From: Caldicellulosiruptor acetigenus
GTDB lineage: Bacteria > Bacillota > Thermoanaerobacteria > Caldicellulosiruptorales > Caldicellulosiruptoraceae
Length of the DNA stretch: 64,000 nucleotides
Direction: 5' to 3'
NCBI RefSeq assembly: GCF_026914305.1
Contig: NZ_CP113866.1
Span: forward strand, 2,608,001 to 2,672,000
The translations under genes and the position numbers were made by a program. Of this stretch, positions 270 to 60,662 are shown piece by piece. Numbering within the stretch: the first letter of the stretch is position 1; every line of letters starts with the position of its first letter. The notes below the pieces were generated by a model. It saw nothing but the letters and a program-made list of their open reading frames with translations. It did no database searches and was not told where the DNA came from.

Positions 270-797
270 TTACCCCCAGCAAAACTCAAAGTACGCGCAC
301 GACTTGCAAATCTTTTGTTTTTGCGCAGGTGGTGGAATGGGCTTTGTTGTAATTTCTTCTATCTCTTTTAAAGCTTGCTTTACCTTTTCTTTGTACTCAG
401 GGGTCAGCTCCAGCACCTCTTTTCTTTTCTCTTTCGGATAATTGATTATTCCTTGCTTTTGAATTCCTTTTTGCTTGAGATAGTAAAGATAGTACACAAC
501 CTGCATTATATCAGCTTCTTTCATTTTACTGCTATATTTTACTTCTCTGATGCTGCCGTCTGATAAAATATCTATCATGACAAGGTTGTCAATCAAGACT
601 TCTTTTGTGTTTTCTTTTGGATACGAATACTCATGTAAAACTTTGCCCAGAAGAACTTTGTCTGATGTACTTTCAAAAGTTATGTTTTTGCTAAATAGCC
701 AGAGTTTTCTTTTGCAGATGTAAAGGTAGTTGATTTTTATGCCTTGAAATTTGACTTCAGAAAATTCTTGTATATCTTCCATTTTTCTCTCACTCAC
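270..797 (-). CDS. cas4: Cas4 exonuclease, spacer-acquisition accessory (type I-B)
   Basis: This 175-residue protein has the Cas4 layout of a PD-(D/E)XK nuclease core inside an Fe-S cluster fold. Visible are Cys28 (YICKRK), the GKVLHE helix, an acidic residue near 70-76, the EVK catalytic pair at 85-87 and a Q-x3-Y helix at 99-103. The C-terminal cluster cysteines are C164, C167 and C173 (CKSCAYFEFC). Cas4 trims prespacers and helps choose the PAM together with Cas1 and Cas2. It lies between cas3 (4-nt gap) and cas1 (6-nt gap). The length is normal and all expected metal ligands are present. Confidence 0.95.
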   Translation of the reverse strand: MSERKMEDIQEFSEVKFQGIKINYLYICKRKLWLFSKNITFESTSDKVLLGKVLHEYSYPKENTKEVLIDNLVMIDILSDGSIREVKYSSKMKEADIMQVVYYLYYLKQKGIQKQGIINYPKEKRKEVLELTPEYKEKVKQALKEIEEITTKPIPPPAQKQKICKSCAYFEFCWG

Positions 798-801
798 TTA
801 T

Positions 802-3147
802 TTACCATATATCAGATTGTTCTAATCCTTTTGGTGGTATCAAACCTAATTGGTCATCATATTCGCAATCAAGTATATAGATCCCTAAATCTTTGTTATA
901 ACAACTTGCTCCGCCTTTGGCAAAGAAGTATGCCGGGGCTGTAACGGTATATTTTCTGATGGAGGAAATTAATTTCAATTTTTCTATAGACCTTATAGAC
1001 CTTGAATTTATTTTTTTAAGAGCTTCATTTATTTCTTCGATATTTTTATCAAATATTTCTCTCGGTATGCCAGAAATTGTAACAACATCTCTGAAGATCT
1101 TTTGTGCTTCAATTTTTCTATCTGCTCTGAAGCCAAGTTCTAAAAGTTCATATGCCTTTTTGAATTTACTTATAAAATTGGTACTTGAGAGTGCATCAAT
1201 ATCGTATACATATTCATTTAGCTCTTTCTTGTCATATTCTGTAATTTTATTTTCATCAAATTTTTTCAGAAACTCTTCTGTCCTGTCGACAATCTCTCTC
1301 TGATAAACTTTTCCGATTCCACTTGGGTCTTTGGTCAAAATGATAACATTCGGGCATAGCTCATTATATGGTCTTTTTCTATATACCCTTCCCATTCGCT
1401 GAAGTAGCGAATCTGCCGATGCAAGTTCTGTAAACAAGATATCATAATCTATGTCAAGTGAAGCTTCCACAAGCTGAGTTGATATTACAATACCGTTTTT
1501 TCTGTGATTTGAGATAACAATTTGCTCTTTTTGCCTCTTTTGTCCCTCTAAAAACCTTGAATGCAAAAGTTCAACAGGAATCTCTCCAAACCTTTTTAGA
1601 TTTTCCTTTATAACTTGGTAAACTTCCTGTGACCTTTTTACAGTATTGCATATAACAAGCACATTTTTTTGTTTTGCATGTTCAACTATTTCGTCTACGC
1701 AGTCTAAAATTGAAAGTTCTTTGATTGCAATAATATGAGAATATCTCTTTTTCAGTTCTTCATCTGAATATGCTTGCAAATACTCAGCCCACTCTCCAAG
1801 GTGTTTTAGGATAAGCGGGTTAATTGTTGCACTCATTAAGCAAAACTTTCCATTTAAATTTATGATTTCTTCTAAGGTCTTTATTATAATTGCCAAAGAC
1901 TCTGGAGAGTAGCTCTGCGGTTCATCTATTACAATCTTTGAGTATAAGAATAATGAATAAATCTTTTCAAATCCCGGCCACTTCAAAGCTGATGTAAAAA
2001 TCTGGTCTCCTGTTGTAACAATTATTGGAAGACTTAAATTCTTAGCAAGATCAACGCTATCAAACAGAGCTTCTAACTCTTGATTTTCGCGCTCCAAATT
2101 CAAATATTTTTCAAGTAAATATATCATACTATCTGAGTGCAAAATCCCAACCTTATCCTCGCCAAAGATTTTTGCTAATCTCTCATACATTGCATTGATA
2201 GAAACACGAATTGGAAGAGTGTAAATGAGCTTACTTTTGAATGCCCAGTTTAGCCCAAACTCTGTCTTCCCACTGCCAGTTGGAGCAAATAAAATTACGT
2301 TTTTTTCAGAAAGCTCCATCGCCTTTCTCTGAAAATCTTTAAATCCGGTAAAACTGCACTTGCTCTTCAAATAAACTTCAACCTTTTCAGGGAAATTATT
2401 AATCTTTGCCTCTTCTGCACTGATTCCTGCAGAACTTGAATGGTCAATCCTGTGCAAAAGCCCTTTTAAAAAAATTCTAAAAATCACCTTTTTGTCCGAA
2501 AGGTCATATGAGTCTTTGAACATCAATTCTCTTAATTGATTAATTACCCTATATGTATAATTCGAACTTTCCACTACTTTATCCCTGTCAGGGACTGAAG
2601 GAAGTAACTCAAACAGAGGTTTTAGCGTTTGATTCTCTATATACTTTGAAACGTCCTCACAGATGTATTTATTGAAATATTGGAAATTAACATCAAAATC
2701 TCTGTCATGCGAAAATGCAATTGCAAAAAGTAAATTTTGAAAATCTTCACAGGTAATATTACCTTTTTCAATTTCATCTTCCAAATTGACAAAAACTATA
2801 GATATAAAGTTATGAGGCACCTCCTTAGACAAACCCTTAACTTGAGGTACCTCATGCACTTTTGTCTTATCCCTTATTTTTTGCTGAAATTTCGAATTTG
2901 CCTTGCCCAAATCGTGATATATTATCGCTAATCTTAGAAGATACTTGAGCTTCTGATAGTCTATTTGCAGCCTTTTACAACCTTCTTCAATCTCTTCCTT
3001 ATATTCTTCAAACAGCTTTTCCATGTTATTTAACAAATCCATCGTGTGTTGATATATGGTTTGATATTCACTTCCTTTGTCACTTTTAAATTTCTTGGCA
3101 TAAAGTTCTATATCCTTGTAACTATCAATTTTCATACTCCTCATCAC
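802..3147 (-). CDS. cas3: Cas3 HD nuclease-helicase (type I-B)
   Basis: About 780 residues in the normal Cas3 order. The N-terminal HD nuclease has H34, the HD pair at 78-79 (YHDLGK) and a further HD at 147-148. The superfamily 2 helicase follows, with Walker A APTGSGKT at 288-295, motif II DEPQ at 408-411, motif III SAT at 439-441 and motif VI QRMGRVYR near 585. Cas3 is recruited by Cascade to unwind and degrade target DNA. GTG (3147) and ATG (3144) are both possible starts and overlap the cas5 stop by about 20 nt; ATG 3135 is a third option. All catalytic motifs appear intact. Confidence 0.95.
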   Translation of the reverse strand: MMRSMKIDSYKDIELYAKKFKSDKGSEYQTIYQHTMDLLNNMEKLFEEYKEEIEEGCKRLQIDYQKLKYLLRLAIIYHDLGKANSKFQQKIRDKTKVHEVPQVKGLSKEVPHNFISIVFVNLEDEIEKGNITCEDFQNLLFAIAFSHDRDFDVNFQYFNKYICEDVSKYIENQTLKPLFELLPSVPDRDKVVESSNYTYRVINQLRELMFKDSYDLSDKKVIFRIFLKGLLHRIDHSSSAGISAEEAKINNFPEKVEVYLKSKCSFTGFKDFQRKAMELSEKNVILFAPTGSGKTEFGLNWAFKSKLIYTLPIRVSINAMYERLAKIFGEDKVGILHSDSMIYLLEKYLNLERENQELEALFDSVDLAKNLSLPIIVTTGDQIFTSALKWPGFEKIYSLFLYSKIVIDEPQSYSPESLAIIIKTLEEIINLNGKFCLMSATINPLILKHLGEWAEYLQAYSDEELKKRYSHIIAIKELSILDCVDEIVEHAKQKNVLVICNTVKRSQEVYQVIKENLKRFGEIPVELLHSRFLEGQKRQKEQIVISNHRKNGIVISTQLVEASLDIDYDILFTELASADSLLQRMGRVYRKRPYNELCPNVIILTKDPSGIGKVYQREIVDRTEEFLKKFDENKITEYDKKELNEYVYDIDALSSTNFISKFKKAYELLELGFRADRKIEAQKIFRDVVTISGIPREIFDKNIEEINEALKKINSRSIRSIEKLKLISSIRKYTVTAPAYFFAKGGASCYNKDLGIYILDCEYDDQLGLIPPKGLEQSDIW

Positions 3148-3871
3148 CTATTAAATCAATGATTATATTCTCATCATCTACCATAACCTCTTGGTCAACC
3201 ATTGCCATTGGATTTAACTGTTCTAATGTTTCAATAAAAACTACATCTTTTTTGTGAGTAAATATCCTCAAACCATCTTTGGTCTTTTCATATCTATTGT
3301 TGAGTCTGAACCTGATTCCATCAATCATAAGTTTCTCAGCAGTTGAGCTTTTCAAATACATTCCTATCTCTGGTGGTCTTTTCTTTATATATTTTTTGTA
3401 CTCTACTTTACTTGGCTCAAAAAATTTTACTTCGTCTATTCTCATCAAATCCTCTTTTCGGCCCAAACCCCAGTAAGAGTCAAAGATATTTTCATATATT
3501 TTTTCTAAAACATCCTTTTCAGCATTTACATGAATACACAGCTGAACATCAACAAGGTTTGTCACATATATAACGCCATTTACCACTCTTGCAGAAACCT
3601 CATTTACAACAGGAGCAGTGTCATCTTCTCCCCTTAGTCTATCAAACTTTATTATCCTTTGAATATCATAAACAACAGAGTTGAACTTTCCACATATGGA
3701 TACTGCCATTTTGTAATATTTTCCATCTCTTGCACCCAAAATATTGTGAAGCCACCCCTTCACGGTAGATGGTGGTGGTAGAGGATAAGAGTCTATTATT
3801 CCATATGAAAATGGTTTTCTGAAGTTTGCAAAAGGCTGATAAATCTTAATTTTTAGAAGGTTATTGAGCAT
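3125..3871 (-). CDS. cas5: Cas5 Cascade subunit (type I-B)
   Basis: This 248-residue RAMP protein shows the Cas5 N-terminal signature: an FANFRKPF strand followed by YPLPPPSTVKGWLHNILGA. Cas5 caps the 5' handle of the crRNA within Cascade and contacts the large subunit. It lies 2 nt after cas7 and overlaps cas3, so translation is probably coupled. The PPPSTV motif and the gene order identify the Cst/Tneap-like I-B branch. The last residues are acidic (DLIGDEEYEN) and look like an unstructured tail. Confidence 0.93.
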   Translation of the reverse strand: MLNNLLKIKIYQPFANFRKPFSYGIIDSYPLPPPSTVKGWLHNILGARDGKYYKMAVSICGKFNSVVYDIQRIIKFDRLRGEDDTAPVVNEVSARVVNGVIYVTNLVDVQLCIHVNAEKDVLEKIYENIFDSYWGLGRKEDLMRIDEVKFFEPSKVEYKKYIKKRPPEIGMYLKSSTAEKLMIDGIRFRLNNRYEKTKDGLRIFTHKKDVVFIETLEQLNPMAMVDQEVMVDDENIIIDLIGDEEYEN

Positions 3872-3873
3872 CT

Positions 3874-4803
3874 TTAAACTGTCCCCTCTTCGTAATATTT
3901 TCTTGCTCTTTCTTTCAAATTTTCAAAGAAGTAATCAATTGTGCCGCTTGAAGCTGGCAGAAGCTTTTTGAGCTCTTCTTCATTTGCAAAAAAGCCTTCT
4001 AATATTCCTAATAGAGTGTAATCAAAGACCTTCTTGCCATTTGGTAGTGTCAGCTCACATGTGCTATGAAGCAGCCTTGGGTCAATTGCATAGGCTGAAT
4101 TTTCTTTTATAATTCTAATTCTATTTAAGAAAAACGGATTTTTTATTGGATAAAGACCACCTATTGCAAAAAGCGGGCTTAAATTTTCTCTTCTACCCTT
4201 AATTTCTCTGCTCAAAAACTTTATTGCATCAAATAAGCTATAAAGCCTCTTAAGTTTTTCATCAACTGGTATCTCTTCAACCACTTCTCCTTTTTCATTA
4301 AAATCCTTGCCCAGTCTGTCTAAGTCAATTGCCACTGTATAGGTATATAAGGATTTGTGCTGTTCAAGCTGGTATGGATTTGGATTAGTATTTGCTCTTT
4401 TTGCTAAATTTAAGTTTGTTGCAAACTCTATGTCGTTTTTGTACTCTTCCAAAGAAACGGCTGGAGTAATTTTCACAACCGCTGTTCGTGTTTGTGCATT
4501 TTGACCTTGCCCTGAAGTTTTCATGTAACCAAACAAATCTATCTCCGGATACTCAGCAATTGTTGCTTCTTTTTTAAATTGAACTACCTGCTCATCCCCT
4601 GTTACTGGGGTTTCCTTAATACCTGCATTTTCTAACATAAATTTGTACTTTTCAAATCTTAAAGCCTGTCGTGACATGTAGGTGTATATCTTATTTTCTC
4701 TTGTAAGTTTTTTAAGCTCAGAGATGTTCCCCAAACTTTCTCCATAGTTTAAGCTCATTGCTTCAAACACAACTGTAATTGTAATTCCTGCATTTTTATT
4801 CAT
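3874..4803 (-). CDS. cas7: Cas7 Cascade backbone, Cst2/DevR family (type I-B)
   Basis: A RAMP-fold backbone subunit of about 309 residues that polymerises along the crRNA spacer. The DevR/Cst2-type signature is visible: an N-terminal GITITVVFEAMSLNYGE strand, a central segment running DLFGYM into RTAVVKITPAVSL, and a downstream FAIGGLYPIKNPFF strand. A GTG-type frame opens at 4821, but the internal ATG at 4803 (MNKNAGITIT) fits better because the longer version would overlap cas8 by 26 nt. The chosen start still overlaps the cas8 stop by 8 nt, consistent with coupled translation of the two Cascade subunits. Confidence 0.94.
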   Translation of the reverse strand: MNKNAGITITVVFEAMSLNYGESLGNISELKKLTRENKIYTYMSRQALRFEKYKFMLENAGIKETPVTGDEQVVQFKKEATIAEYPEIDLFGYMKTSGQGQNAQTRTAVVKITPAVSLEEYKNDIEFATNLNLAKRANTNPNPYQLEQHKSLYTYTVAIDLDRLGKDFNEKGEVVEEIPVDEKLKRLYSLFDAIKFLSREIKGRRENLSPLFAIGGLYPIKNPFFLNRIRIIKENSAYAIDPRLLHSTCELTLPNGKKVFDYTLLGILEGFFANEEELKKLLPASSGTIDYFFENLKERARKYYEEGTV

Positions 4804-6439
4804 TATCAACAACCTCCTCACTATTTTCTACTTTTTCATCTTTTTCGCTTCCAAGCAGTCCATTTACAAAGCTGTACCCCAGTGCACAAAAATTGTCTCT
4901 GTCATTTATACACGACACAAACAAAGCAGGAACTTCCATGTTATAGCTCATATAGGTTCTAATAATCAGATTCATAAATGTATTTACGTCGCCTATTCTG
5001 AGTGCCGAAATTAGTCTGTAAGCAAGGCTGGTTATTTTGTTTTCAGCTTTTGAGGCTAAGAACTTTTTCTTTAGTTCCTGGCCAAAGAAATACATTTTCC
5101 ACAACCATTTTTCATCCATTAACTCTCCACCTCTTTTTATACTTTTTAGATATTTATACGTAAGGATGTTATACATTTGGAGTCTATAAGGAGAAAGATT
5201 TGTATTTATTTTGGAATTTGGTTTTTGGGAACTCAAATATTGCCCTTCCAAGAATGATAAAAACTGAAAACTCAATGTGTTATTCAAAAATCTTTGCATA
5301 AATCCTCCAAAAGGATATATAGTATTGTCATTTATCCTAATATAATTTCCTGTAATTTTTTCAAACACATCATAGTTTGAGGTTATAAATTCTGCCTTCT
5401 GTTTAGAAATATTAAATCCATAAAGCTTTGGTGCAACAGTTGTTAAATCTATCTCAATGAACAAAATATTGGCCAAGCTAAATTTGCTCTCTTCCCTTAG
5501 CTTCAAAAGCAGATAATCATTGAGAAAATTCAAAATCCCTTTTTCTTTTAATATGTTCTCTTCTCTTGACATCATTTCCATAAATAGCTTATTTGTCTGA
5601 TAGAGCTCCAACATAGAGGTATTCCTATCTACAAAATAAAACTTTTTGGTTTGTCCTATTCTAAATTCGGTCAATCCTGCAAATATGCAAAAATATATCA
5701 ATTCACAAATCTCACAAATGGGCAGCTGCGGCTTGAAATTCCAGAAAAAATTCTTATTGTCTTTATTAGCACCCAGAAAGCTTACAAGCCCAGTGTCTAA
5801 TAAAGCATCCTTTTTAGCAGGTCTTAACCCACAAAAGATGCAGGTGTGATGTTTGTCCTGTTTATTTGTTCTTTGGATTATAGGAGCTTCAAAATCGTTA
5901 TAAAACCTGTTTTTCAATCCAGTGGTAACACTGCGTTGCAAAAAACTCTTTTGCCCATAAATGGAGCTTATGGTTGCTAAGTACGTTTTGACGTCATTTT
6001 CAATAAACTCTTGTTTGTTCTCATTTAACAATCCAATTATTTGAGTAACATATTGCTCGGCATCATCCTTGCTAAAATTTCTTGGCAAAGCTATATTCTG
6101 TGTGTCTGCTAATTGTTTTAATTTTGAAAAACCATCCACTCTTTTTTTAAAATTGCTTACCTCTTGTTTTAAATTTTTATCAAATTCATTATCTTTCAGC
6201 TTTTGCAATAATTTATTGCCTAAATCAATCAACTCATCTGTTCGTGGATACCTCTGGTAAGCTTTTTTGAAAAACTTATCAGAAAACCCTTGCAAACTAT
6301 TTCTATTAAACTCTATGTAGTTTGGCCCGACTGTTATGATATTTTGAGAAGCTATATCCTCTCCATCCAGCATAATCTCAATAAAACCAATAATTCCTGC
6401 ATTATAAGCCCAATCTCCTAAATATACCCTCTCTACCAT
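4796..6439 (-). CDS. cas8: Cas8 large subunit, CxxC-CxxC Cst1 type (type I-B)
   Basis: This 547-residue protein has the paired cysteine motifs that name the Cas8a1/Cst1 family: CIFC at about 200-203 and CEIC at about 242-245, probably a structural zinc site. The large subunit recognises the PAM and recruits Cas3. A frame opening at the TTG at 6493 lies inside cas6. I prefer the ATG at 6439 (MVERVYLGDWAYNAG), which has a GGGGA/GGAG purine stretch just upstream and a typical Cst1 N-terminus. The gene sits between cas6 and cas7 in the operon. Confidence 0.92.
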   Translation of the reverse strand: MVERVYLGDWAYNAGIIGFIEIMLDGEDIASQNIITVGPNYIEFNRNSLQGFSDKFFKKAYQRYPRTDELIDLGNKLLQKLKDNEFDKNLKQEVSNFKKRVDGFSKLKQLADTQNIALPRNFSKDDAEQYVTQIIGLLNENKQEFIENDVKTYLATISSIYGQKSFLQRSVTTGLKNRFYNDFEAPIIQRTNKQDKHHTCIFCGLRPAKKDALLDTGLVSFLGANKDNKNFFWNFKPQLPICEICELIYFCIFAGLTEFRIGQTKKFYFVDRNTSMLELYQTNKLFMEMMSREENILKEKGILNFLNDYLLLKLREESKFSLANILFIEIDLTTVAPKLYGFNISKQKAEFITSNYDVFEKITGNYIRINDNTIYPFGGFMQRFLNNTLSFQFLSFLEGQYLSSQKPNSKINTNLSPYRLQMYNILTYKYLKSIKRGGELMDEKWLWKMYFFGQELKKKFLASKAENKITSLAYRLISALRIGDVNTFMNLIIRTYMSYNMEVPALFVSCINDRDNFCALGYSFVNGLLGSEKDEKVENSEEVVDNE

Positions 6440-6467
6440 CTCCAAATATTCCCCTTTGCTATCTTGC

Positions 6468-7253
6468 TTATTTTGCCACCTCAACAAACCCAAATCCCTG
6501 TCCTCTTCTAAATCCTATCCCATTTTGATACAATTCTTTTAAATCCTCCGGGTCTCCTGATAGTTCAAACAAACCAGAAAATCCTGTCAAAAACATTATG
6601 TCTTTGCCTGTAGTTTCAACAAAATCTGATATTCTGTGTTTTACAACAGTCTTTTGTACATTTATTGGCCTGAAAGTTAACCTCTTTTGCAGTTCTCTGT
6701 TTTGCCCTCGCAAAAGACGAATATTTCTAATCTCAAAGTCAATAACATCGTTGAAGACTTCTTCAAACTCTTCATCAAAAGGCAAAACTGGCACTTTTTT
6801 GTTGCCTTCTTTTTTTTCAATCAAAATTGGAGCAAACGTTTTGAAGGTCATTTTTGAGTCAAACTTTTCTGGCTCTCTTAGCAAATACGTTCGCTTAAGC
6901 GCAATCTTGCAGCTATCTGTTAAAGGGTATGGATAGAGACGATTGTTGAGTAAGCTGTTGTACATGTTTACAAAAAACTCATAGTCAGATGTGGAAAGAT
7001 TAAGCAAAATATCTCCTCTGAAAGAAACGGTATCATCTTGAAAGTTCATATTGGGAAGATTTACTGCAAAGACAAAAGGCTTTTGCCATTTATTCTTTTT
7101 ATCTTCCCACCAGTAAAGCCTGTTGAAATATTCTTGATTGTAAAGTGATAGTGCTCTTTTTAAAAAACTCATAAAAATGGCTCTGTAATAGATAGGAAGT
7201 TCATGAACCTGTCCTTGTTTTTCAGATACTTCAAAGATAAATTTTGCTCTCAT
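6468..7253 (-). CDS. cas6: Cas6 pre-crRNA endoribonuclease (type I-B)
   Basis: A 261-residue double-RAMP protein ending in the glycine-rich loop GIGFRRGQGFGFVEV that typifies Cas6. Cas6 cuts the repeat transcript to leave an 8-nt 5' handle; with repeats ending GATTGAAAC the handle would be ATTGAAAC. A candidate catalytic histidine lies in the N-terminal third (H18 in QVHELPIYY or nearby). It is the first gene of the type I-B operon. It is the only complete Cas6 in the window, so it may serve all five arrays, including those next to type III-A. Confidence 0.93.
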   Translation of the reverse strand: MRAKFIFEVSEKQGQVHELPIYYRAIFMSFLKRALSLYNQEYFNRLYWWEDKKNKWQKPFVFAVNLPNMNFQDDTVSFRGDILLNLSTSDYEFFVNMYNSLLNNRLYPYPLTDSCKIALKRTYLLREPEKFDSKMTFKTFAPILIEKKEGNKKVPVLPFDEEFEEVFNDVIDFEIRNIRLLRGQNRELQKRLTFRPINVQKTVVKHRISDFVETTGKDIMFLTGFSGLFELSGDPEDLKELYQNGIGFRRGQGFGFVEVAK

Positions 7254-45249: not shown

Positions 45250-45558
45250 TAACAATTTAAAAATTATGCGAAGATAAATTATGATAAATGTTTTCTATTT
45301 CTATTTTATGCTATTTTTGTATCGCTATTATATTACAAATCAATGTGTGTACTTAGAATGAACAGTTACAGCCAAATCTTGTATTTACCAATTGCTGTCG
45401 ACCTGCAATCCCCCCAAAAACCCCCGGGGGTCGACAGCAAAAGGTAATTTCTGGCATGTGTTGACTTTCAAGAGTTTGTGGGGTATAATAGAAATAACCT
45501 ACAGCAGCTTGAAAACTTAACCATTTGTTCCTTGCGGCTTTTTTCAAACTATCTACGG
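45250..45558 (+). promoter_or_regulatory. CRISPR leader A with promoter
   Basis: Shares a long block of sequence with leaders B and D. It contains TTATGCGAAG (45264), an inverted repeat TGCTGTCGACC/GGTCGACAGCA around CCCCC/GGGGG, and a sigma-A promoter TTGACT (45461) - 17 nt - TATAAT (45484). It ends directly at repeat 1 of array A, giving transcription in the repeat direction. Confidence 0.85.
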
Positions 45559-45954
45559 GTTTGTAGCCTTCCCGTTGGGGATTGAAACACCTCGTCCAAA
45601 ACTTCTGGCAATTCACTCTCGGCGGTTTGTAGCCTTCCCTTTGGGGATTGAAATTGCGATAGGAGGCGTTGACCTGTCAAGCACTACAGAGTTTGTAGCC
45701 TTCCCTTTGGGGATTGAAACGGCACTATAAACAGTGCCACTTTCCACCAATTCATTGTTTGTAGCCTCCCCTTTGGGGATTGAGGAGGGAGAGGAGTTAT
45801 AGCCTTCCAGTTGGGGATTGAAAGCCATTCTGATTTTGCTTTAGGTGTCTTAATAGGTATGTTCGTAGCCTCCTCTTTGGAAATTGAAACCCGCATAAGG
45901 TGAGATACTTGTCATAAACTCCAGTTTGTAGCATCCCCCTTTGTGGATTGAAAA
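45559..45954 (+). CRISPR. CRISPR array A (7 repeats, progressively degenerate)
   Basis: 30-nt repeats at 45559, 45625, 45691, 45757, 45796, 45861 and 45924. The first three are near-consensus (repeat 1 has T16G; repeat 2 ends in T). Repeat 4 is the mutated terminal form (T12C, end AGGA). Repeats 5-7 are fossil. The three proximal spacers are 36 nt each; after repeat 4 they are about 11, 36 and 33 nt. Spacer 3 contains a GGCACT/AGTGCC palindrome. Repeat direction is plus, read from leader A. Confidence 0.95.
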
Positions 45955-46074
45955 GAGAAGAGGGTAAGCCATCTCTTGGGAACTGTATTTAGCAAAGTAT
46001 TTTTTTGTTTTTTTAGTGTGGTATAATAAAAGTGTACAGAAAAATATACAACCTGAGAAAAAGGAGAAAAAACT

Positions 46075-47028
46075 GTGTGCGAGAAATTACCACCAAAAGA
46101 GCACGATACAACGTTCAAGTTTTTGTTTGCAGGCAAAGAGGAAATACTTTTGCTGGTAAAAGACATACTGCACTATACATGGGCAGACAGCATTGAAGAA
46201 GACACAATTGAGCTTGTCAAGACAAACTATGTCACCCAGCAGTTTTCGCAGGTTGAAGCTGACGTTGTAGCAAAAGCAAAACTAAAGGATAGAGAAGTAT
46301 ATTTTTATATCCTGATTGAGAACCAGTCGAAGGTAAAAAAAGAGATGCAGCAAAAGATTTTAAAGTACATGATAAGTTTATGGGCAGAAGAAATAAGAAA
46401 AGGGGTACAAATCCTGCCGGCAATTATACCGATAGTTGTGTACAACGGAATAGGTGAGAGATGGAATGTATCAACAGACCTTATGGAAGCGTTTGACATA
46501 TTCAAGGATGATGTATTCAGGTACAGAGTAGTTGACATAATAGAGCTTGATGTGAAGAAGCTTTTAGAAAGAGAAGAGGATGTGCTGACACCGATAGTGT
46601 TTTATCTTGAGCAGGCAAGAGAAGACAGGAGTGAGCTTATAGGAAGGCTTTTGGAAGTTGAGAAGAACTTAAAGAAGCTGAGTAAAAAGAATGTAGACAG
46701 ATTTTTGGAGTGGTCGTATCATATTATAAGACCGAGGCTGGCTGAAGAGCAAAACTCAGAGTATGATGAGATTGCAAAAAGGGTAAAACAGGAGGGAGTG
46801 GAGGCTATGGGTGAGTTTATATCAAATGTTGCAAGACTTTTGGATGAGGCAAAAACAAAAGATTTTTTGGCAGGTAAACTTGAAGGTAAACTTGAAGGGA
46901 AACTTGAAGCAACAATCGAGTTTGCGAAAAGGTTAATACAAAAGGGTTTTAACGATGAAGAGGTTGCAGAACTTACAGAACTTCAGATTGAAAAAGTTAA
47001 AGAGTTGAGAAAATCCATGGTAAATTGA
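46075..47028 (+). CDS. Rpn/YhgA-family PD-(D/E)XK nuclease
   Basis: 317 residues, recombination-promoting nuclease (Transposase_31) family: KEHDTTFKFLFAGKEE at the start, then EADVVAKAKLKDREVYFYILIENQSK with the D...E-x-Q nuclease pattern, and PIVVYNGIGERW. The C-terminus has repeated GKLEG units from a 12-bp tandem repeat (46872-46907) and an EFAKRLIQKGF...VAELTEL helix pair. GTG start 8 nt after GGAG; extended -10 TGGTATAAT at 46019. Such genes copy themselves and recombine; a 3' fragment lies at 51970. Confidence 0.9.
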   Translation: MCEKLPPKEHDTTFKFLFAGKEEILLLVKDILHYTWADSIEEDTIELVKTNYVTQQFSQVEADVVAKAKLKDREVYFYILIENQSKVKKEMQQKILKYMISLWAEEIRKGVQILPAIIPIVVYNGIGERWNVSTDLMEAFDIFKDDVFRYRVVDIIELDVKKLLEREEDVLTPIVFYLEQAREDRSELIGRLLEVEKNLKKLSKKNVDRFLEWSYHIIRPRLAEEQNSEYDEIAKRVKQEGVEAMGEFISNVARLLDEAKTKDFLAGKLEGKLEGKLEATIEFAKRLIQKGFNDEEVAELTELQIEKVKELRKSMVN

Positions 47029-47054
47029 GATGGTTTAAACATAAAATAGTTAGG

Positions 47055-47090
47055 GGGTTGTCCAAAACGATAGTTGGATAGCCCTTTTCT
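47055..47090 (+). terminator. Terminator of the Rpn gene
   Basis: GGGTTGTCCAA pairs with TTGGATAGCCC (G-U wobbles) followed by TTTTCTT, about 30 nt after the stop. Confidence 0.8.
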
Positions 47091-47235
47091 TACAATTTAA
47101 ATCAAAATAAACTGTTGAATAATCAAATGCAGGTATGGTTATATTCTGCTTTATCCTTACAAATTGATTAGACTGACTTTTTTCATGCTGGCTCAATTTT
47201 TATTTTGCATCTTTTATTTTGTTTAACTTATTAAT

Positions 47236-47543
47236 AAAAATGTAAAAATTATGTGAATATAAAATATGATTAACGTTTTCTGTTCTATTTCCTGTCATTT
47301 TTGTATTGCTAATATATTGCAATTCAATTTGTGTGCTTTGTATTTTCACATACAGCCAAATCTTGTATTTACCAATTGCTGTCGACCTGTAATCTCCCCA
47401 AAAACCCCCGGGGGGTGACAGCAAGAGGTAATTTCTTGCATGTGTTGACTTTCAAGAGTTTGTGGGGTATAATAGAAACAACCTACAGCAGCTTGAAAAC
47501 TTAACCATTTGTTCCTTGTGGCTTTCTTCAACCTATCTACGGG
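47236..47543 (+). promoter_or_regulatory. CRISPR leader B with promoter
   Basis: Copy of leader A with scattered changes. The upstream motif reads TTATGTGAAT, the inverted repeat has lost one base, and the promoter TTGACT (47445) - 17 nt - TATAAT (47468) is intact. Confidence 0.8.
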
Positions 47544-47691
47544 GTTTGTAGCCTCCCCTTTGGGGATTGAGGAGTAAGAATTGTTTGTAGCCTATCCTTG
47601 GAAAATTGAGAATGGAGAAAGAGTTTACAACCTTTCTGTGGAAATCTATATGCGGTTCATGGATTATAGTTTCCCCTTTAGGAATTGAGAA
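47544..47691 (+). CRISPR. CRISPR array B (spacerless, fossil repeats)
   Basis: The leader runs straight into the mutated terminal repeat (47544-47573; T12C, end AGGA). Three increasingly decayed repeats follow at 47583, 47623 and 47662, separated by only 9-10 nt. No normal spacer remains. Period about 40 nt. Confidence 0.75.
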
Positions 47692-47766
47692 GAAGAGAAG
47701 ATTTGTTATCTTTTGCTTTTATAAATTTTTTAGTGGTGGTATAATGAAAGGGGATAATAAAAATTT

Positions 47767-48090
47767 ATGAAGCGTTTAGTAATAAAGTACATTCAAGAAT
47801 GCTTCAAAAAGGATATGTTTACATTATCAGCACATGCTTTGCAAAGAATGAAGGAAAGAAAAATAACTCTTGAAGAAATAAAAGACTGTATTATAAAAGG
47901 GGAAACAATTGAAATACAAGATTTTTTTAAAGATGTACACGTTTTGTTTCAGGAAAGTTCTGATAGACCTGGTATTTACGTTGTTGTAGCAGCTTGTAAT
48001 CCCCCAATGGTTGTAACTGTTTGTAGAACAAAAGATGAAATATGGGAAGTGTGTAATGGAATATTGAAGAGGAGGAAAAAGGGGAAATGA
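47767..48090 (+). CDS. DUF4258 protein, probable toxin of a toxin-antitoxin pair
   Basis: 107 residues: FTLSAHALQRMKERKITLEE, then GIYVVVAACNPPMVVTVCRTK. This is the DUF4258 pattern related to RelE/BrnT RNase folds. It overlaps the next gene by 4 nt (ATGA), and DUF4258-YgiT pairs are a known arrangement. Extended -10 TGGTATAAT lies about 30 nt upstream; ribosome site weak. It follows CRISPR array B directly. Confidence 0.8.
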   Translation: MKRLVIKYIQECFKKDMFTLSAHALQRMKERKITLEEIKDCIIKGETIEIQDFFKDVHVLFQESSDRPGIYVVVAACNPPMVVTVCRTKDEIWEVCNGILKRRKKGK

Positions 48091-48500
48091 GTAAAAAATG
48101 CTTTTTTTGTGGAGCAGAAATGAAGAAAGAAATAACAAATGTTGAAAGCGGATGGGGAGAATACACTTTCAAAATAGAGGGTGTTCATGCTTATGTTTGT
48201 TATGAATGTGGGGAAAAAATATTTGAACCAAAAGAAGCTGAAATGATTCTGGAGTTAGGCAGAGCTTTAAGTTTCTTGCCAAATGAAGAAAGACCTGCTC
48301 CAAATGAAGTCCTCGACATCAATGGAATTCACGATTTCTTGAAAATTTTGAGCAGCTCAATATTTAGTTTGATAACTAATAAAGATATCAAACTACAGAG
48401 AAAAAAAAATAAATGGTTTTTTCAAACAGAAAATTTACTCAAAGTTCTGTACAACGGGACTAGTCTTCATAATAACGACTACAATGCCCTGGGATTATGA
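48087..48500 (+). CDS. YgiT-type zinc-finger protein, probable antitoxin
   Basis: 137 residues. The N-terminal 65 carry two CxxC pairs (KCFFCGAEM, YVCYECGEKIF) of a YgiT/MqsA-like zinc finger, with EPKEAEMILELGRALS after. The usual antitoxin ends near residue 75-80. Here about 60 further residues (DINGIHDFLKILSSSI, then DYNALGL) continue without recognisable similarity, perhaps an altered or read-through C-terminus. ATGA overlap with the DUF4258 gene indicates coupling. Confidence 0.75.
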   Translation: MSKKCFFCGAEMKKEITNVESGWGEYTFKIEGVHAYVCYECGEKIFEPKEAEMILELGRALSFLPNEERPAPNEVLDINGIHDFLKILSSSIFSLITNKDIKLQRKKNKWFFQTENLLKVLYNGTSLHNNDYNALGL

Positions 48501-48684
48501 TTATTAGTATTCAAAATCAAATATCAAATTCTTAGTTAAATTTTTATTAATTATTGGTTGGCAATTTTTTATTATTCAGTTTTGGCATTAATGGCATATA
48601 TTTTATTCTAATTAAATAAGTATAAAAGTATAATAATTTGGAAAAACAAAATGCAACCTTTAATATGTATCTAATTACAAGATA

Positions 48685-48766
48685 TGTTAGGGTATAATAG
48701 AAATAACCTACAGCAGCTTGAAAACTTAACCATTTGTTCCTTGCGGCTTTTTCAAACTATCTATGG
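48685..48766 (+). promoter_or_regulatory. Truncated CRISPR leader C
   Basis: Only the promoter-proximal end of the A/B/D leader remains: GGTATAATAGAAATAACC and the following ACAGCAGCTTGAAAAC block, up to repeat 1. TATAAT is at 48693, but the -35 position holds TCTAAT, so the promoter looks disabled. The 48501-48684 stretch shows no gene. Confidence 0.75.
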
Positions 48767-48976
48767 GTTTGTAGCCTTCCCTTTGGGGATTGAAACTCTA
48801 CAAATTCCAAAATACCTGGTACTCAGAGAGGGTTTGTAGCCTCCCCTTTGGGGATTGAGGAGGGGGTTTTAGCCCTCCTTTTTGGAGTTTGAAGGCTTGA
48901 AAAAGCGTTTTATAGCCTTCTTTTCGGAGATTGAGGGGGAAGGAGAGAGTTTAGCCTTCCCAAGTGGTGATTGAGG
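48767..48976 (+). CRISPR. CRISPR array C (one spacer, then fossil repeats)
   Basis: Consensus repeat 48767-48796, a 35-nt spacer, then the mutated terminal repeat at 48832 (T12C, end AGGA). Fossil repeats follow at about 48866, 48907 and 48949, separated by roughly 4-12 nt. Confidence 0.85.
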
Positions 48977-49112: not shown

Positions 49113-49604
49113 TCATTTTTCTTTTGCTTGTTTTAGAATTTCTTCAACAAGTTGAGGAGAAATTCTTATGTTCTCTTCAATCAACTTTTTTATAAGCGGT
49201 TCTATTTGACTAACAAGCCCAACTTCTTTTGCTTTTAATAAAATTCCCAAGGAACCTGTTAGTCTCAGCCCCAATAGTTTGGCAACACTCCTTCCTTTCT
49301 TCTCGTCCATTATTAATAAATCCGCATTTGATTCCTTTGCCAATATAATGGTTTCGCTTTCTCCTTTATCGATGGCCTGTGTTCTTTGCAAGATTTCTGC
49401 TGCAAATTCATTTCTTAACTCTTTAATTTTTAAAAATGCAGCATTCATTATTCTACCTTTTTCTTCCTCAAACTTTGAACTGTACGTAAGTTCGTGATAA
49501 ACACTTGGAGAAATATATACAGTACCAAACAAATTTTCTAAAATATCTAATCTCTCCAGTTTCGCAAATACTATTATAGGTGTGGTATTAGAAACTACTA
49601 TCAC
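49113..49604 (-). CDS. DUF3368 PIN-like toxin
   Basis: 163 residues of the DUF3368 family, PIN-fold RNases: N-terminal VVSNTTPIIVFAKLE (first acidic position), IDKGESETIILAKE and LLIMDEKKGRSVAKLLGL hold the conserved acidic residues. It lies 10 nt downstream of a UPF0175 gene, forming a well-known toxin-antitoxin pair. Lies opposite in strand to the CRISPR cassettes on both sides. Confidence 0.9.
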   Translation of the reverse strand: MIVVSNTTPIIVFAKLERLDILENLFGTVYISPSVYHELTYSSKFEEEKGRIMNAAFLKIKELRNEFAAEILQRTQAIDKGESETIILAKESNADLLIMDEKKGRSVAKLLGLRLTGSLGILLKAKEVGLVSQIEPLIKKLIEENIRISPQLVEEILKQAKEK

Positions 49605-49614
49605 ATTCTATCAC

Positions 49615-49881
49615 CTACATTTTCTCGATTGCATTCTTGTCCTCTATCACTTCTTCAATTGATTGGTCAAAATAATTGATACCATATTCACTTAGTTCCT
49701 TAATCAACTCAATTTTTGACATACCTAAAATTTCTGCTCCCTTACCAAACGAAATCTTCTCATCTTTTATCAATTTATAGATAATCAACTCTTTTAATAC
49801 CTTATCGTTGGTTATTTCATTTAGAGAAATGTAGTTTAATATTTCCTTTGGAAGTTCTATCTCAATTTTTATTCCTTCCAT
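49615..49881 (-). CDS. UPF0175 antitoxin
   Basis: 88 residues of the UPF0175 family: an N-terminal strand EIELPKEILNYI, then the helix-turn-helix-like KISFGKGAEILGMSKIELIKEL. These small proteins bind DNA and neutralise DUF3368 toxins. It is the first gene of the pair. Confidence 0.9.
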   Translation of the reverse strand: MEGIKIEIELPKEILNYISLNEITNDKVLKELIIYKLIKDEKISFGKGAEILGMSKIELIKELSEYGINYFDQSIEEVIEDKNAIEKM

Positions 49882-50402: not shown

Positions 50403-50497
50403 GTTTGTAGCCTTCCCTTTGGGGATTGAAACATAACTGAATCATCCACAACAACCCCTTTCTTTCCGTTTGTAGCCTCCCCTTTGGGGATTGATGA
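50403..50497 (+). CRISPR. CRISPR array D (two repeats, one spacer)
   Basis: Consensus repeat 50403-50432, a 35-nt spacer and a terminal repeat at 50468-50497 with T12C and end ATGA, close to the terminal form in arrays A-C. No fossil repeats follow. Confidence 0.85.
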
Positions 50498-52307: not shown

Positions 52308-54104
52308 TTATTGAAGAGTCCTTAAAAACTCAAGCACAGCATCGTTTGCGTTCTGAACATAGATGGGCAGTGGTACAGCCTCCAGCCCAATTGCATCATA
52401 GCTCACAAGAAGCCAGCACCCTTTTTTGAACTTGAATGTCTGCTTGAACATATCCTCACTTATACCAAAAGCGTCTGTTATTCTCTCTTGGTCAGATTTT
52501 CTTGGAAGCTTGCTAACAAAGTATGTGTGAGGCTGTGCCATTATGTTTGTGTTAAGATAAGTTATTCTCTGGGTTGCAATACCTATCCCTAAGCCAAATT
52601 TTCTTCCGCGCCTTGCCAAATGCATCACAACTTCGCTTGAACGCTCGTATGAATCCTTTGCATCCTGTGGAATGAACTCGTCAGCCTCGTCAAATATGAA
52701 ACTCACAACAGGGTCAATCTTGCCGCTTCGACGCCTGTCTTCAAAAATGGCCATGCCAATCTGATACGCAAGATTTCTCAGCTCATCCGGGTCGTGCGAC
52801 TGAAATATCACAAGCGCCTTGTCATCTGGATTGTTGAGAATGTCAATAAGTTTTTTCTGGTCAATAACATTTTCATTTGAAAATCCGAACTCTTTCAGTT
52901 CGTCATATCTCTTTTCAAGCTCACTTACAAAAAGCTCCAAATTTGAAAGAGCAATTGAGCCAAGCTTCCCACCCGAAAGATACTTATCTTTAATGTACTG
53001 AATAAGTTTTTGACAATTGTTGGCATCTAAAGGGGTTGTACTTTTCAAAAGTTGTTCATAGAGCTTTTTCACTACAGCTTCGCTCTTGCCTAAATAACCT
53101 TTAAAAAGCGTCCTCTCATGAATTCTGACAAAATCAGCAACAGTTATATCGCCACTCTGCCAAACCTTCACTTTCTTGCTCAGCAAAATCTTGAAAAAGG
53201 CTTTTTTGAACAAATCCTTGTGGCTTACTAATCCTTTGGGATATAATGAAGAATTTACAACATCAATTGTTGCTTTTTTCAAAAGATCTTTGTACTCAGG
53301 TAGGCTTCTGTCTGCCTTCATAAGGGAAATAAGAGAACCTACAAACGTTTTCTCCCCAATGCCCACAATCATGCTATTGTTGAGTTTCACCAAAAGGTCC
53401 ACAAGCAGTGTTGAATACTCACCCATCAGGTCAAATATTACAATTTTCACGGGAAGATTTGATTCTGTTAATATCTTTCTTACAAGAGTGCTAAGAAGGT
53501 TTGATTTACCTGCTCCTGTAAAACCAAACACGCCAAAGTGCACTCTCAAAAGCTCTTCTACTTTCAGCAAAATCTTAACATTTTCATCCCTTATCAGATG
53601 ACCAATCTCAATCACATCACCGCTTTTGTCTATGTCATAGTTCAAGATACGATTTGTCAGCTCCTCATCAAGCAAAAATGCCTCTGCACCAACCATGGGA
53701 AGATTTGACTCTATCCCTATCGAAACTTTTTGGTCCTTGTCGATTATAATCTCAAAATTTGTCGGAATTGCAAGGCATCTTATTTTTGTGGCATCGTCTA
53801 AAGGCTCTTCTTCTTGCTCTTCCCAGTCACGATAAATATTTTCTGCTGCCTCGGTCAAAAATCCCGGATACCCCGAAAGGTCGTTGTCAAGCCCATAGTG
53901 AAGCGGTATCACAGATGTAATTTCCAATATGCAGTATCGAATCTTGTCAGACGTTGACGAAAAATTCTGAACCGCCAGAAGTGCGCCTTCCTTTATTTCA
54001 TTCATAGCCTTTTTTGTATAATCAAACCAGATTTCAGCTCTGTATCTTGAATATACATCGCTATCATATTTCATCATACGCCCAACAATCTCAGTGTTGA
54101 ACAT
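52308..54104 (-). CDS. herA: HerA-like hexameric DNA translocase ATPase
   Basis: About 598 residues. An N-terminal HAS-type beta-barrel region (to about 170) precedes a RecA-like FtsK/HerA motor: Walker A GFTGAGKS at 194-201, VIFDLMGEY after it, Walker B SFIFDEADEFIP and the later motif GIATQRITYLN. It pumps DNA to the NurA nuclease. ATG 54104 is 8 nt after GGAG and 5 nt after the nurA stop, so the two are co-translated. It is the last gene on this strand before convergent mobile DNA. Confidence 0.92.
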   Translation of the reverse strand: MFNTEIVGRMMKYDSDVYSRYRAEIWFDYTKKAMNEIKEGALLAVQNFSSTSDKIRYCILEITSVIPLHYGLDNDLSGYPGFLTEAAENIYRDWEEQEEEPLDDATKIRCLAIPTNFEIIIDKDQKVSIGIESNLPMVGAEAFLLDEELTNRILNYDIDKSGDVIEIGHLIRDENVKILLKVEELLRVHFGVFGFTGAGKSNLLSTLVRKILTESNLPVKIVIFDLMGEYSTLLVDLLVKLNNSMIVGIGEKTFVGSLISLMKADRSLPEYKDLLKKATIDVVNSSLYPKGLVSHKDLFKKAFFKILLSKKVKVWQSGDITVADFVRIHERTLFKGYLGKSEAVVKKLYEQLLKSTTPLDANNCQKLIQYIKDKYLSGGKLGSIALSNLELFVSELEKRYDELKEFGFSNENVIDQKKLIDILNNPDDKALVIFQSHDPDELRNLAYQIGMAIFEDRRRSGKIDPVVSFIFDEADEFIPQDAKDSYERSSEVVMHLARRGRKFGLGIGIATQRITYLNTNIMAQPHTYFVSKLPRKSDQERITDAFGISEDMFKQTFKFKKGCWLLVSYDAIGLEAVPLPIYVQNANDAVLEFLRTLQ

Positions 54105-54109
54105 TCTTT

Positions 54110-55960
54110 TCACTCCTCGTCTTCAAACTCAAGTTTATCCCTAAATTTTCTGAAAGTCATGTTCAGTGGGTCTTTTCTGTAAAGCTGCTGGCTGCTATGG
54201 ATTATTCCCTTTGCAAATCTTAAGAGGGTTTTAGCACCTCTGTCTGCCTTGTGAAGCGGTTCTGGATATCCAATCACTTCCGGAAAGTGGTTTCTTGTAA
54301 GAACATCTAAAAAATAGATGTTCATTGCCTGGCCCCAGTTGATAACCTTCTTGTCAAGGTGAATAAAAGGCGATAGTCTCCCCAGCTTGCTGTTTTCAAG
54401 CAGTATCACATCCAAAAACTGTCTGTCAAGACTGGGATGCAGCAGCCTTTCAACAAAAATGGCATGACCCATCTTGCACTGCTTTTTTGACCTTTGCAGA
54501 TAAAACTGGGCTATTGACTTTGCAAATATTCTGTCATCTGCTACTATGTGGCCTTTCACGCCTGTGACGCTGTTATTCCTGTCCACAAACAAAGTAGCAA
54601 ATGCAGAGTCAAACTCAACAGAAGACCATGGGGCACAAAGTTCAGTGCTCAAAGCTGCGCAGTTTTCGAAAACAAGCCTATCGCTCATGGCTATCTGAAA
54701 GTTCTTTATATCAACATTTTCATTTCCGTCTCCCAGCATGTTCTGACTTGAAAGCACGTTTAAAAAATTTCGACAAAAATAGCGCGATTTTGAGTCTTTC
54801 ACAATCCCAATTAAAAAGACATTCTTCTCCCAGCACTTTTCAATCAGAGCTCTTATGCCAATTGAAATCAAAAAATTTATATCATCATGAGAAATCAGCT
54901 TTTTAATATTGCTTTCTTCAGAGAAATTAGAAAACTCTAACGCTGTCGGATTTTTGCGGATAAATATCTGATTGCAGATATAATCAAAAAAGCTTACAAG
55001 ATAGCTCCATCGTTGGCTTAAGTTTACCAATAGTTTTATTCCCGCCGCTTCATCATCTTCCACAACTCCTGTTGCATCTAAAAATCTTACGATTTCTTTT
55101 ACATCTTCTATGGAAAGATGGCAAATTTCTGTAAGCTCTCTGTATGTAAAGTAGTTTTTCTGGTTCTGGCTGCAAACCTCATCTAATTTTGACAAAAGCA
55201 GAGCATATCTGCGATACTTTTTCCTTGAAGGAACTCCAAGTAGACTATTATACGGATGTGAAAGTGCAACTATAACATCTGACAACTTTATCGTGTCGTT
55301 GAGATACTTATATCCCAGATAGTTTGTACTCTTGTAGTTTACATATGGCACTCTCAAGAGTGTGCTCGGTGCCAAGTCCAACAGGATTATTTGCGGCATG
55401 TCAACCGTCGATGATGACACAACATGGTAGGCAAGGTAAATCTCTGCAAGCTTCATGAGCGATGTGTGAAGGTTTAAAATCTCCTGTATGTCTTTATCCG
55501 AATAAAACTGCATCTGGCTCAGCTCGGGCGAATTTGCCACAAATTCTATCTCGTAAGGAAACACTGGAATCTGTGCCACCATGGTTACATCTCGTGCAAA
55601 ATCCCACCGCTCGTACTTGATCTTTTCACCTTCATGCTTGATTATTATCTTTCCTCTTGCGCCATAAGCACCCGCAAAGAAGGTTATAAAATCGCTGCCT
55701 TCATCTTTAACACATGTCCCATCTATTGCAACAAAGTTTATCTCATTCTTACCAAAAAAGCTTTCTATCTTCTGCCTGAGGCTGTGTCTGAAAGGCTGGC
55801 TCTCAAAATATCTGCTCCAGTCGATTATGTAATACTTCAACACCGTGCTGTAAAAGTTTTGTAGGTGTTTTAAACTTCTTTCCATGTTCTCATCATATCT
55901 CTTCATTGAAGCCTTGATAGAATTTTTCCAGTATCCATATATCTGAGAGAGCTTTGACAT
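54110..55960 (-). CDS. nurA: NurA-like 5'-3' DNA nuclease
   Basis: About 616 residues, larger than archaeal NurA (about 340). The N-terminal part has the NurA metal motif FVAIDGT with Asp80 and a following GAYGARGKIIIKHE strand. Later QIILLDLAPS, IGIVKDSKSRYF and a C-terminal VIGYPEPLHKADRGAK segment match the NurA RNase H-like fold. It resects DNA ends when loaded by HerA. A winged-helix-like insert (FTYRELTEICHLSIEDVKE) lies in the middle. ATG 55960 or TTG 55966 behind GAGAGGAAAG. Confidence 0.8.
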   Translation of the reverse strand: MSKLSQIYGYWKNSIKASMKRYDENMERSLKHLQNFYSTVLKYYIIDWSRYFESQPFRHSLRQKIESFFGKNEINFVAIDGTCVKDEGSDFITFFAGAYGARGKIIIKHEGEKIKYERWDFARDVTMVAQIPVFPYEIEFVANSPELSQMQFYSDKDIQEILNLHTSLMKLAEIYLAYHVVSSSTVDMPQIILLDLAPSTLLRVPYVNYKSTNYLGYKYLNDTIKLSDVIVALSHPYNSLLGVPSRKKYRRYALLLSKLDEVCSQNQKNYFTYRELTEICHLSIEDVKEIVRFLDATGVVEDDEAAGIKLLVNLSQRWSYLVSFFDYICNQIFIRKNPTALEFSNFSEESNIKKLISHDDINFLISIGIRALIEKCWEKNVFLIGIVKDSKSRYFCRNFLNVLSSQNMLGDGNENVDIKNFQIAMSDRLVFENCAALSTELCAPWSSVEFDSAFATLFVDRNNSVTGVKGHIVADDRIFAKSIAQFYLQRSKKQCKMGHAIFVERLLHPSLDRQFLDVILLENSKLGRLSPFIHLDKKVINWGQAMNIYFLDVLTRNHFPEVIGYPEPLHKADRGAKTLLRFAKGIIHSSQQLYRKDPLNMTFRKFRDKLEFEDEE

Positions 55961-56532: not shown

Positions 56533-57156
56533 CTACTTCACACAGAACATCTGGCAGAACATGTCAAGAAGCTCGCTTGAAGCAAAAATTTCGTACCTGC
56601 CAAAATATTCAATTCTTGATTTAATCAAATGCTGCTTTTTCAAGCCATCTTTTATAACAAAGAAAAACCTCTGGTCTTCTGGATATGTCCCAAACCTCTG
56701 GTAGTAGATGTTCAAAAGCTGTCTTCTCAACCCATCAGAAAAAATCTCTGGCTGCCTGTCATATTCCAAGCAAACACCGTCTTTTTGAGCAAACACACCG
56801 CTGAGCAAAATTCCACTTGACTTTGGCTGCTGCCCCTTGCATGAAATTTTCTTCAAGTAAATACCTTCAAACAAGCCATTTAATGTTTCATAAACCTTTA
56901 ATATGTTCTGTGCGACAAGTTCTAAAAAAGGTGTTGCAAGGTATATTCTAAAATCTTCAAACACCCATACGCCATCTTCAACCTCTTTTTTGTTCTTTGT
57001 TTTAATGGGAGAGATGGTAAACTGCTCGGTTGCAAGAAGACTTTTCAAAACTTCATATACCTTAGAGTAATAAGAGGATGGCAAAAACACGCCATCCTCC
57101 CTTGCCCAGAAATGAAATGTAAAGTATTTTGCCACTTTTTCATCACAGCCCATCAT
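56533..57156 (-). CDS. Cas6-like RAMP protein lacking the C-terminal Gly-rich loop
   Basis: 207 residues. Despite low similarity, the order of segments follows Cas6: YYSKVYEVLKSLL, TISPIK, FRIYLATPFLELVAQNIL, ILLSGVFAQKDGVCLEYD, LRRQLLNIYYQRFGTYPEDQ and YFGRYEIFASSELLDMF. The protein then stops exactly where Cas6 normally continues into the GhGxxxxxGFG loop. Downstream frames show no such loop. It overlaps csm5 by 4 nt (ATGA). It may be a degenerate or non-catalytic crRNA-binding protein, or an unusual RAMP. Not certain. Confidence 0.6.
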   Translation of the reverse strand: MMGCDEKVAKYFTFHFWAREDGVFLPSSYYSKVYEVLKSLLATEQFTISPIKTKNKKEVEDGVWVFEDFRIYLATPFLELVAQNILKVYETLNGLFEGIYLKKISCKGQQPKSSGILLSGVFAQKDGVCLEYDRQPEIFSDGLRRQLLNIYYQRFGTYPEDQRFFFVIKDGLKKQHLIKSRIEYFGRYEIFASSELLDMFCQMFCVK

Positions 57157-58337
57157 TTGATAGTTACCTTTATCCAGCCTGGTACTGTCCAGACCTGTCC
57201 GTTTTTGAACACAAGCCTCCTTGTCTTTGGGAAAAGCTCAGGATAAATCTTTGACTGTCTGTCAACTTTTGCAAGTTTTTCAAAGTGGTTTTTGTTGAAA
57301 AATATTCCGACAGTCTTTGAAAGATATCCAGTGGAAAATCCTATCTGAATCAAAAACTGGTTCTTATCAAGAGAATTTAGAACATTCAAAAGCTTCTGAT
57401 ACTCCGAAACAATCTGAGCTTGCTTATATCTTGTGTAAAAATTGATTTCCCTCTGGATGTAATCTTTAGAGACAGCTTTCAAAACATCTGCTAAAAACTC
57501 TGTCGGAGAAGTTGCTGTAGCATTCACACCGATTTTTTCTTTTATCCCTCTGACAACTTGATTGCCCTCAACAAAGTCTTTTTCAATCTTGATGCTGCCG
57601 ATAAGTTTTGCACCAGGCTTTATTCCTTCTGCAATTATAGAAACAGCTCTGTCCGGGTCATCTTCATTGCTTCTGCCAGCAAACCATTTAACCTGGCCGC
57701 CACATATGTTCATAACCTTTATTTCATAAACACCTGCATTTTCAGAACTTACAAAATCGCTATCGCTTATTTTAAGATGCTTAAACGGTGACTCGTAAGG
57801 GGTTGCAAAAATTTTTTCTTCCGCGTCTTTGCTGACATATTTGGGATCAACACTATTTCTTCTATCAGCAGAATTCAAAGTCTTCTGGTACGCACTTGAA
57901 AGATCATTCTCATACAGCTGTATAAAGTTCCTGTTCAAAGCCTTTGTCACAAAAGACCTTATCGCACCTTTTAAGGATGAGCCTGGAATATAAAACCTGC
58001 CTGCGCTCTTGACAAAAGGAACAACTTCTTTTGAGAGCCTTTTAACCCCTTCAAGTTTTAACTTGTACTTTGAAGAATTCTTAAAATCTATGTTATAGCG
58101 CGCCAAAACATCTTTTATATTAAAATCCCTGCCACCGGTTGAAAGCCCGCGCGAAAGCTCATCAATAAAACTTTCCTTGAAAAGATTTTCTTCAAGCAGT
58201 CTGTCAAAGTTTATAAAATACAAATAATCTCCATCTTTGACAAACTCAAAACTCTGGATTTTGTCCTGCCCACCAATTATTGTTGGGGTCAAAACTTCTA
58301 TCTCATAAGTCCTGCTTTCAAATGGTTCATGAGCCAA
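57153..58337 (-). CDS. csm5: Csm5 type III-A effector subunit
   Basis: 394 residues with the Csm5 RAMP motifs: LTPTIIGGQDKIQSFEF at the N-terminus, RFYIPGSSLKGAIRSFV, and C-terminal IQIGFSTGYLSKTVG. Csm5 caps the head of the Csm complex and helps crRNA maturation. It overlaps csm4 by 11 nt and the Cas6-like gene by 4 nt, so all are one operon. No sign of decay. Confidence 0.93.
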   Translation of the reverse strand: MAHEPFESRTYEIEVLTPTIIGGQDKIQSFEFVKDGDYLYFINFDRLLEENLFKESFIDELSRGLSTGGRDFNIKDVLARYNIDFKNSSKYKLKLEGVKRLSKEVVPFVKSAGRFYIPGSSLKGAIRSFVTKALNRNFIQLYENDLSSAYQKTLNSADRRNSVDPKYVSKDAEEKIFATPYESPFKHLKISDSDFVSSENAGVYEIKVMNICGGQVKWFAGRSNEDDPDRAVSIIAEGIKPGAKLIGSIKIEKDFVEGNQVVRGIKEKIGVNATATSPTEFLADVLKAVSKDYIQREINFYTRYKQAQIVSEYQKLLNVLNSLDKNQFLIQIGFSTGYLSKTVGIFFNKNHFEKLAKVDRQSKIYPELFPKTRRLVFKNGQVWTVPGWIKVTIK

Positions 58338-59337: not shown

Positions 59338-59364
59338 CTTTATCACCTTTTTAAACAACAAATT

Positions 59365-60192: not shown

Positions 60193-60219
60193 GGCAATAC
60201 TTTCCCCCTTTTGAGATTA

Positions 60220-60630: not shown

Positions 60631-60662
60631 AACCACTTCACCCTCTCCCATAAAATTAATTT

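Follow-up and report, generated by a model that had tools for sequence, protein, structure and literature searches.

A short-spaced tail of decayed, purine-linked repeats behind CRISPR arrays of Caldicellulosiruptor

In known CRISPR arrays the repeat at the trailer end has diverged mainly at its 3′ side, is conserved among related arrays and marks the leader-distal end (PMC4466440, PMC8047081). Degenerate ectopic repeats of the local CRISPR type are also carried by CreTA antitoxin RNAs (PMC9458426). Recombination between the first and last repeats of an array would give a leader and a terminal repeat without spacers (PMC8047081), and natural collapse and repopulation of arrays have been described in Legionella (Deecker and Ensminger 2020, as reviewed in PMC8047081).

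The arrays described here end in a terminal repeat of the known kind, with 3′ divergence and a leader-distal position, but up to four more decayed repeats follow it, mostly at steps of about 38 nt, with purine-rich linkers and genus-wide. Degenerate repeats of the local type are shared with CreTA; here, however, there are many units with linkers of about 10 nt, they lie at array ends, and no guide-length spacer separates the short units. We did not find such a tail described in the literature on trailer ends, short spacers, minisatellites or Caldicellulosiruptor CRISPR, and judge it a modest new form of the known degenerate trailer end.

Arrays of the window and the repeats behind them

The window, the whole stretch of DNA analysed, comprises 64,000 nt of the complete Caldicellulosiruptor acetigenus chromosome (2,739,610 bases), which was compared with 11 congeners in a set of 12 genomes, one per species. 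The repeat GTTTGTAGCCTYCCCTTTGGGGATTGAAAC forms four short arrays (A-D) at 45.5-50.5 kb of the window. A homologous leader stands ahead of each, and homologues of this leader, about 118 nt long, occur at arrays A-D and in 10 of the 12 genomes. In a test for CRISPR arrays, A, C and D showed 30-nt repeats, 65-66-nt steps and spacers of constant length; array B and the tails of the arrays lacked a regular repeat-spacer pattern. The type I-B cas genes of the same window are probably the partners of arrays A-D.

270..7253, - strand: type I-B cas operon (cas6, cas8b, cas7, cas5, cas3, cas4)
45556..45786, + strand: array A, three 36-nt spacers between four near-intact 30-nt repeats, of which the last (45757-45783 plus GGA) is of the terminal type
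47422..47543, + strand: leader of array B, with 95% identity to that of A across 118 nt
48767..48861, + strand: array C, an intact repeat, a single spacer and a terminal-type repeat (48832-48858 plus GGA)
50403..50497, + strand: array D, a repeat, a spacer and a terminal-type repeat (ATTGATGAGAGAGC), without fossil repeats behind

A type III-A csm operon (56533-63197, - strand) with a cas6 of its own is also present in the window, adjoined by a gene for a HerA/DUF87 ATPase (52308-54113, - strand) that matches the PADLOC model 'Type III coevolved'. Two toxin-antitoxin-like pairs lie between the arrays: DUF4258 with an MqsA-like zinc-finger protein (47767-48500, + strand), and DUF3368 (PIN-like) with UPF0175 (49113-49881, - strand).

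We scored fossil repeats, allowing gaps, against the 27-nt core GTTTGTAGCCTYCCCTTTGGGGATTGA (match +1, mismatch -1, gap -2). Four degenerate repeats were found behind the terminal repeat of array A and three each behind those of B and C; the same scoring found none behind that of D. A preliminary description of this DNA had arrays A, B and C running on into decayed repeats, and had named a match no better than chance as the outcome that would speak against it. Indeed, none of 1000 dinucleotide-keeping shuffles of the three tails attained the observed maximum or summed score (the 95th percentile of the shuffled maximum was 8), and the decayed repeats are thus borne out. Genus-wide, the density of matches scoring at least 8 is 1.65 per kb over the 350 nt behind arrays versus a background of 0.106 per kb (about 16 times), and none was found in the 350 nt upstream of arrays. 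Two copies scoring 6, the third in the row of B and the last of A, are weak singly and were counted as members of a register.

45784..45795, + strand: short linker of array A, purine-rich (ggagggagagga)
45796..45821, + strand: fossil repeat 1 of A, score 18 of 27
45861..45887, + strand: fossil repeat 2 of A, score 19, with an old spacer of normal length on each side
45924..45951, + strand: fossil repeat 3 of A, score 21
45960..45987, + strand: fossil repeat 4 of A, score 6, very decayed, behind a second purine linker
47544..47570, + strand: leader-adjacent terminal-type repeat of B, with CTCCCC, and ATTGA then GGA
47583..47609, + strand: fossil repeat of B, score 15, behind the 12-nt linker ggagtaagaatt
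47623..47648, + strand: fossil repeat of B, score 6, weak but in register
47662..47688, + strand: fossil repeat of B, score 15
48866..48892, + strand: fossil repeat of C, score 14, behind the 7-nt linker ggagggg
48908..48934, + strand: fossil repeat of C, score 15
48947..48974, + strand: fossil repeat of C, score 13, behind the linker gggggaaggaga

The four repeats in a row at steps of about 40 nt that had been described for array B are indeed present, starting at 47544, 47583, 47623 and 47662. Measured after a 30-nt repeat, successive gaps are 9, 36, 33 and 5 nt in A, 9, 10 and 10 nt in B, and 4, 12 and 9 nt in C. The 4-12-nt gaps reported earlier for B and C were thus recovered, but A has two of them (9 and 5 nt) and not one, the order there being a short gap, two spacers of normal length and a second short gap. 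The tail that includes fossil repeat 4 of A is homologous to tails of other arrays and species.

The repeating unit and its spread in the genus

The CRISPR regions of the 12 genomes were parsed into 95 array loci. Gaps between repeats are bimodal: about 1040 of them measure 32-44 nt, with a mode of 36, and 57, once chance matches within spacers were removed, measure 13 nt or less, with almost none at 14-31 nt. The 95 loci take in related ones, and these counts are not independent. The 57 short units lie at 35 of the 95 loci, in 11 of the 12 genomes, while 60 loci have none. In units with little decay in either repeat, the step is 36-41 nt.

Linkers of the short units are mostly 9-13 nt (about 11 nt) long and are 88% purine and 53% G, in contrast to 46% purine and 16% G in 972 distinct spacers; a purine content of at least 80% is found in 78% of linkers versus 4% of spacer 11-mers. 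Spacer-like length and composition, when sought in the tail linkers, were not seen, and matches of linker ends to spacer ends stay at the level given by shuffled linkers. In 16 of 17 cases the repeat to the left of a short linker has GGx or GAx at its end, whereas canonical repeats end in AAC or AAT (1020 of 1030). This ending, together with purine linkers unlike spacers, indicates that the replaced piece is AAC plus the spacer. The unit is a repeat truncated at ...GATTGA (27 nt, without AAC) followed by a G-rich linker of about 11 nt, of the type GGAGGGAGGGG, which gives the step of about 38 nt. The linkers are one recurring sequence type, not leftovers of many spacers.

CRISPR integration copies the whole 30-nt repeat. 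Because the left repeat lacks AAC, we reject acquisition of short spacers via Cas1-Cas2.

About 21 arrays with related repeats from other genera of the class showed no 36-40-nt step, and a class-wide search for short-gap patterns found no GGAGG-type linker in other genera. An exact-pattern scan of contigs returned nothing, with a pattern that does not match the known linkers and in a collection that may omit records close to the window; a second such scan returned two matches, both in unrelated metagenome bins, from a collection with the same possible omission. A distinct short-spaced repeat element, one of two readings offered in the preliminary description, is upheld by the truncated repeat and G-rich linker, by their spread across the genus and by their absence from the other-genus arrays checked. 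The attached suggestion that the terminal repeat derives from this element is not supported; the terminal repeat is simply the first unit.

Two families of tails could be followed between species. In family T4, the locus in genome G005 equals that in G001 plus exactly one unit, and unit numbers are lower at the two loci of G006. The end of array A belongs to family T1, whose tails are homologous across four to five species; at array A this tail leads into a Transposase_31 (PF04754) gene. This Transposase_31/YhgA-like (Rpn-type) gene occupies 46075-47028 (+ strand); the T1 tail with the upstream region is also present at G000:2702868 and in G004, G009 and G010, and the upstream part of the gene occurs alone, away from arrays, at G000:775431. 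An old spacer behind the short unit of A, the second beside fossil repeat 2, also occurs in the array that ends at G000:2672900. G009 and G010 carry a near-identical 32-nt unit in two or three copies, which is recent tandem growth.

At one locus common to two species (G001:2857602-2858127, L067, and G005:2709434-2709959, L084), about 500 possibly coding nucleotides separate the last canonical repeat from the tail repeat, resembling a gene inserted in the last spacer. A further region of G001 (2828426-2831003, L065/L066) has 40 repeats, many ending in AAT and not AAC, and several of its spacers appear twice in the same order, suggesting block duplication.

Origin and decay of the tail

The fossil repeats are probably an inherited array-end (trailer) module, a mostly neutral relic that marks the array end, spread by array duplication and altered by gain and loss of units, an account we favour with some reservation. 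Most likely a single event, or very few, gave rise to the module in an array ancestral to the genus, and it would then have been copied with leader and tail as whole arrays duplicated within and between genomes, as the shared leaders and tails T1 and T4 suggest. Units, which differ as wholes between species, may have been gained and lost via unequal recombination or replication slippage. CRISPR adaptation adds spacers and repeats next to the leader only, so that the tail is never renewed and decays. This decay would be mostly neutral, consistent with a linker G fraction that falls (0.75, 0.52, 0.48, 0.45) as the next repeat decays and with the lack of compensatory pairing described below. The purine fraction of linkers drops along the same series from 0.94 to 0.82-0.86, much as purines are retained in the repeats.

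About nine arrays have one or two normal spacers beyond a short unit, and the unit is thus not always at the very end of an array. This counts against a module that is purely an end, and demands a second step; arrays may have been fused by recombination between repeats.

A single origin is also opposed by the purine-rich linkers behind the terminal ATTGA that precede several unrelated 3′ flanks, which are compatible with repeated origin. Recurrent mutation, by which each array end would gain its G-rich linker independently, for example through slippage or templated filler synthesis beside the GGGGA of the repeat, would explain these flanks, the differences in detail among linkers and the near-identical 32-nt copies of G009 and G010. 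We nevertheless consider it unlikely, as the length and composition of linkers are very alike in distant arrays, intact units converge on the same G-rich form, and nothing of the kind is seen in other-genus arrays with similar repeats.

Less likely still is a functional end element. As RNA it would form 3′ hairpins that protect or end the pre-crRNA, or serve as a decoy for Cas6; as DNA it would block recombination or integration at the wrong place. Its genus-wide place at the tail would fit, as would the conservation of the 3′ ATTGA motif in decayed repeats. In 48 decayed tail repeats from 11 genomes, ATTGA has 23 mismatches versus 60 expected, or 0.09 per site versus 0.26 at other A/T positions, a difference to which end-alignment effects may contribute. 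This over-conservation does not fit neutral decay and hints at some constraint; it stands against the neutral module, as do the loci without a short unit. Linkers also showed slightly better pairing with the pyrimidine tract of the repeat that follows them than with those of other repeats (p 0.009). The signal for such a hairpin, however, was gone after removal of near-duplicates, when linker and next repeat showed no covariation (permutation p 0.16) and the repeat's own stem no compensatory changes (permutation p 0.39). A selected RNA structure is thus not supported. Furthermore, linkers decay in step with repeats, most arrays lack the element, and a strict rule found a G-quadruplex motif in none of the 57 units. 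The decay pattern and the absence of covariation are what neutral, transition-rich decay predicts. We are more doubtful again that the purine-linked tail is a selected end element, kept for stabilising the end of the array or for an effect on pre-crRNA ends or on integration, with ATTGA as its core.

Shrinkage of spacers by deletion of the middles of old 36-nt spacers, the other reading in the preliminary description, is very improbable: short gaps do lie at the oldest array end, and one homologous pair (G001:2831003, G006:2736629) has an intermediate gap of 27 nt, but gaps are bimodal without a length gradient, linkers are purine-biased with ends that match spacer ends only at shuffle level, the left repeat lacks AAC, and sister loci differ by whole units.

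Empty arrays and what they offer

Array B had been described as an array that continues into its tail. Its leader, however, is joined directly to the terminal-type repeat and tail with zero spacers, and the array part is therefore missing. Further spacerless loci, with leader, terminal-type repeat and short units, are found at G001:2783376, G004:2513088 and G004:2518082. Array B has the structure of a natural collapsed array, probably left when recombination between the leader-adjacent and terminal repeats dropped all spacers and kept leader, terminal repeat and tail. It thereby resembles the product expected of array collapse, a leader and terminal-type repeat without spacers. The Legionella arrays are of type I-F, whereas those here are of type I-B, and here we infer the route from one genome per species.

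At G004:2542325 the leader-adjacent repeat ends in GAGAG (terminal type) and is followed by a normal spacer, a terminal-type repeat and a short unit, the order that repopulation would leave. This is the sole case with a terminal-type repeat at the leader end, its two repeats differ at other positions, and it may be a collapsed array that was repopulated.

Short distances between repeats at the end of an array do not have to come from spacer erosion, a point that bears on the detection of arrays and on their use as timelines. In the genus, arrays that share leader and tail range naturally from full through nearly empty to empty, and this series makes it testable that differences in the terminal repeat limit collapse and that collapsed arrays can be refilled.
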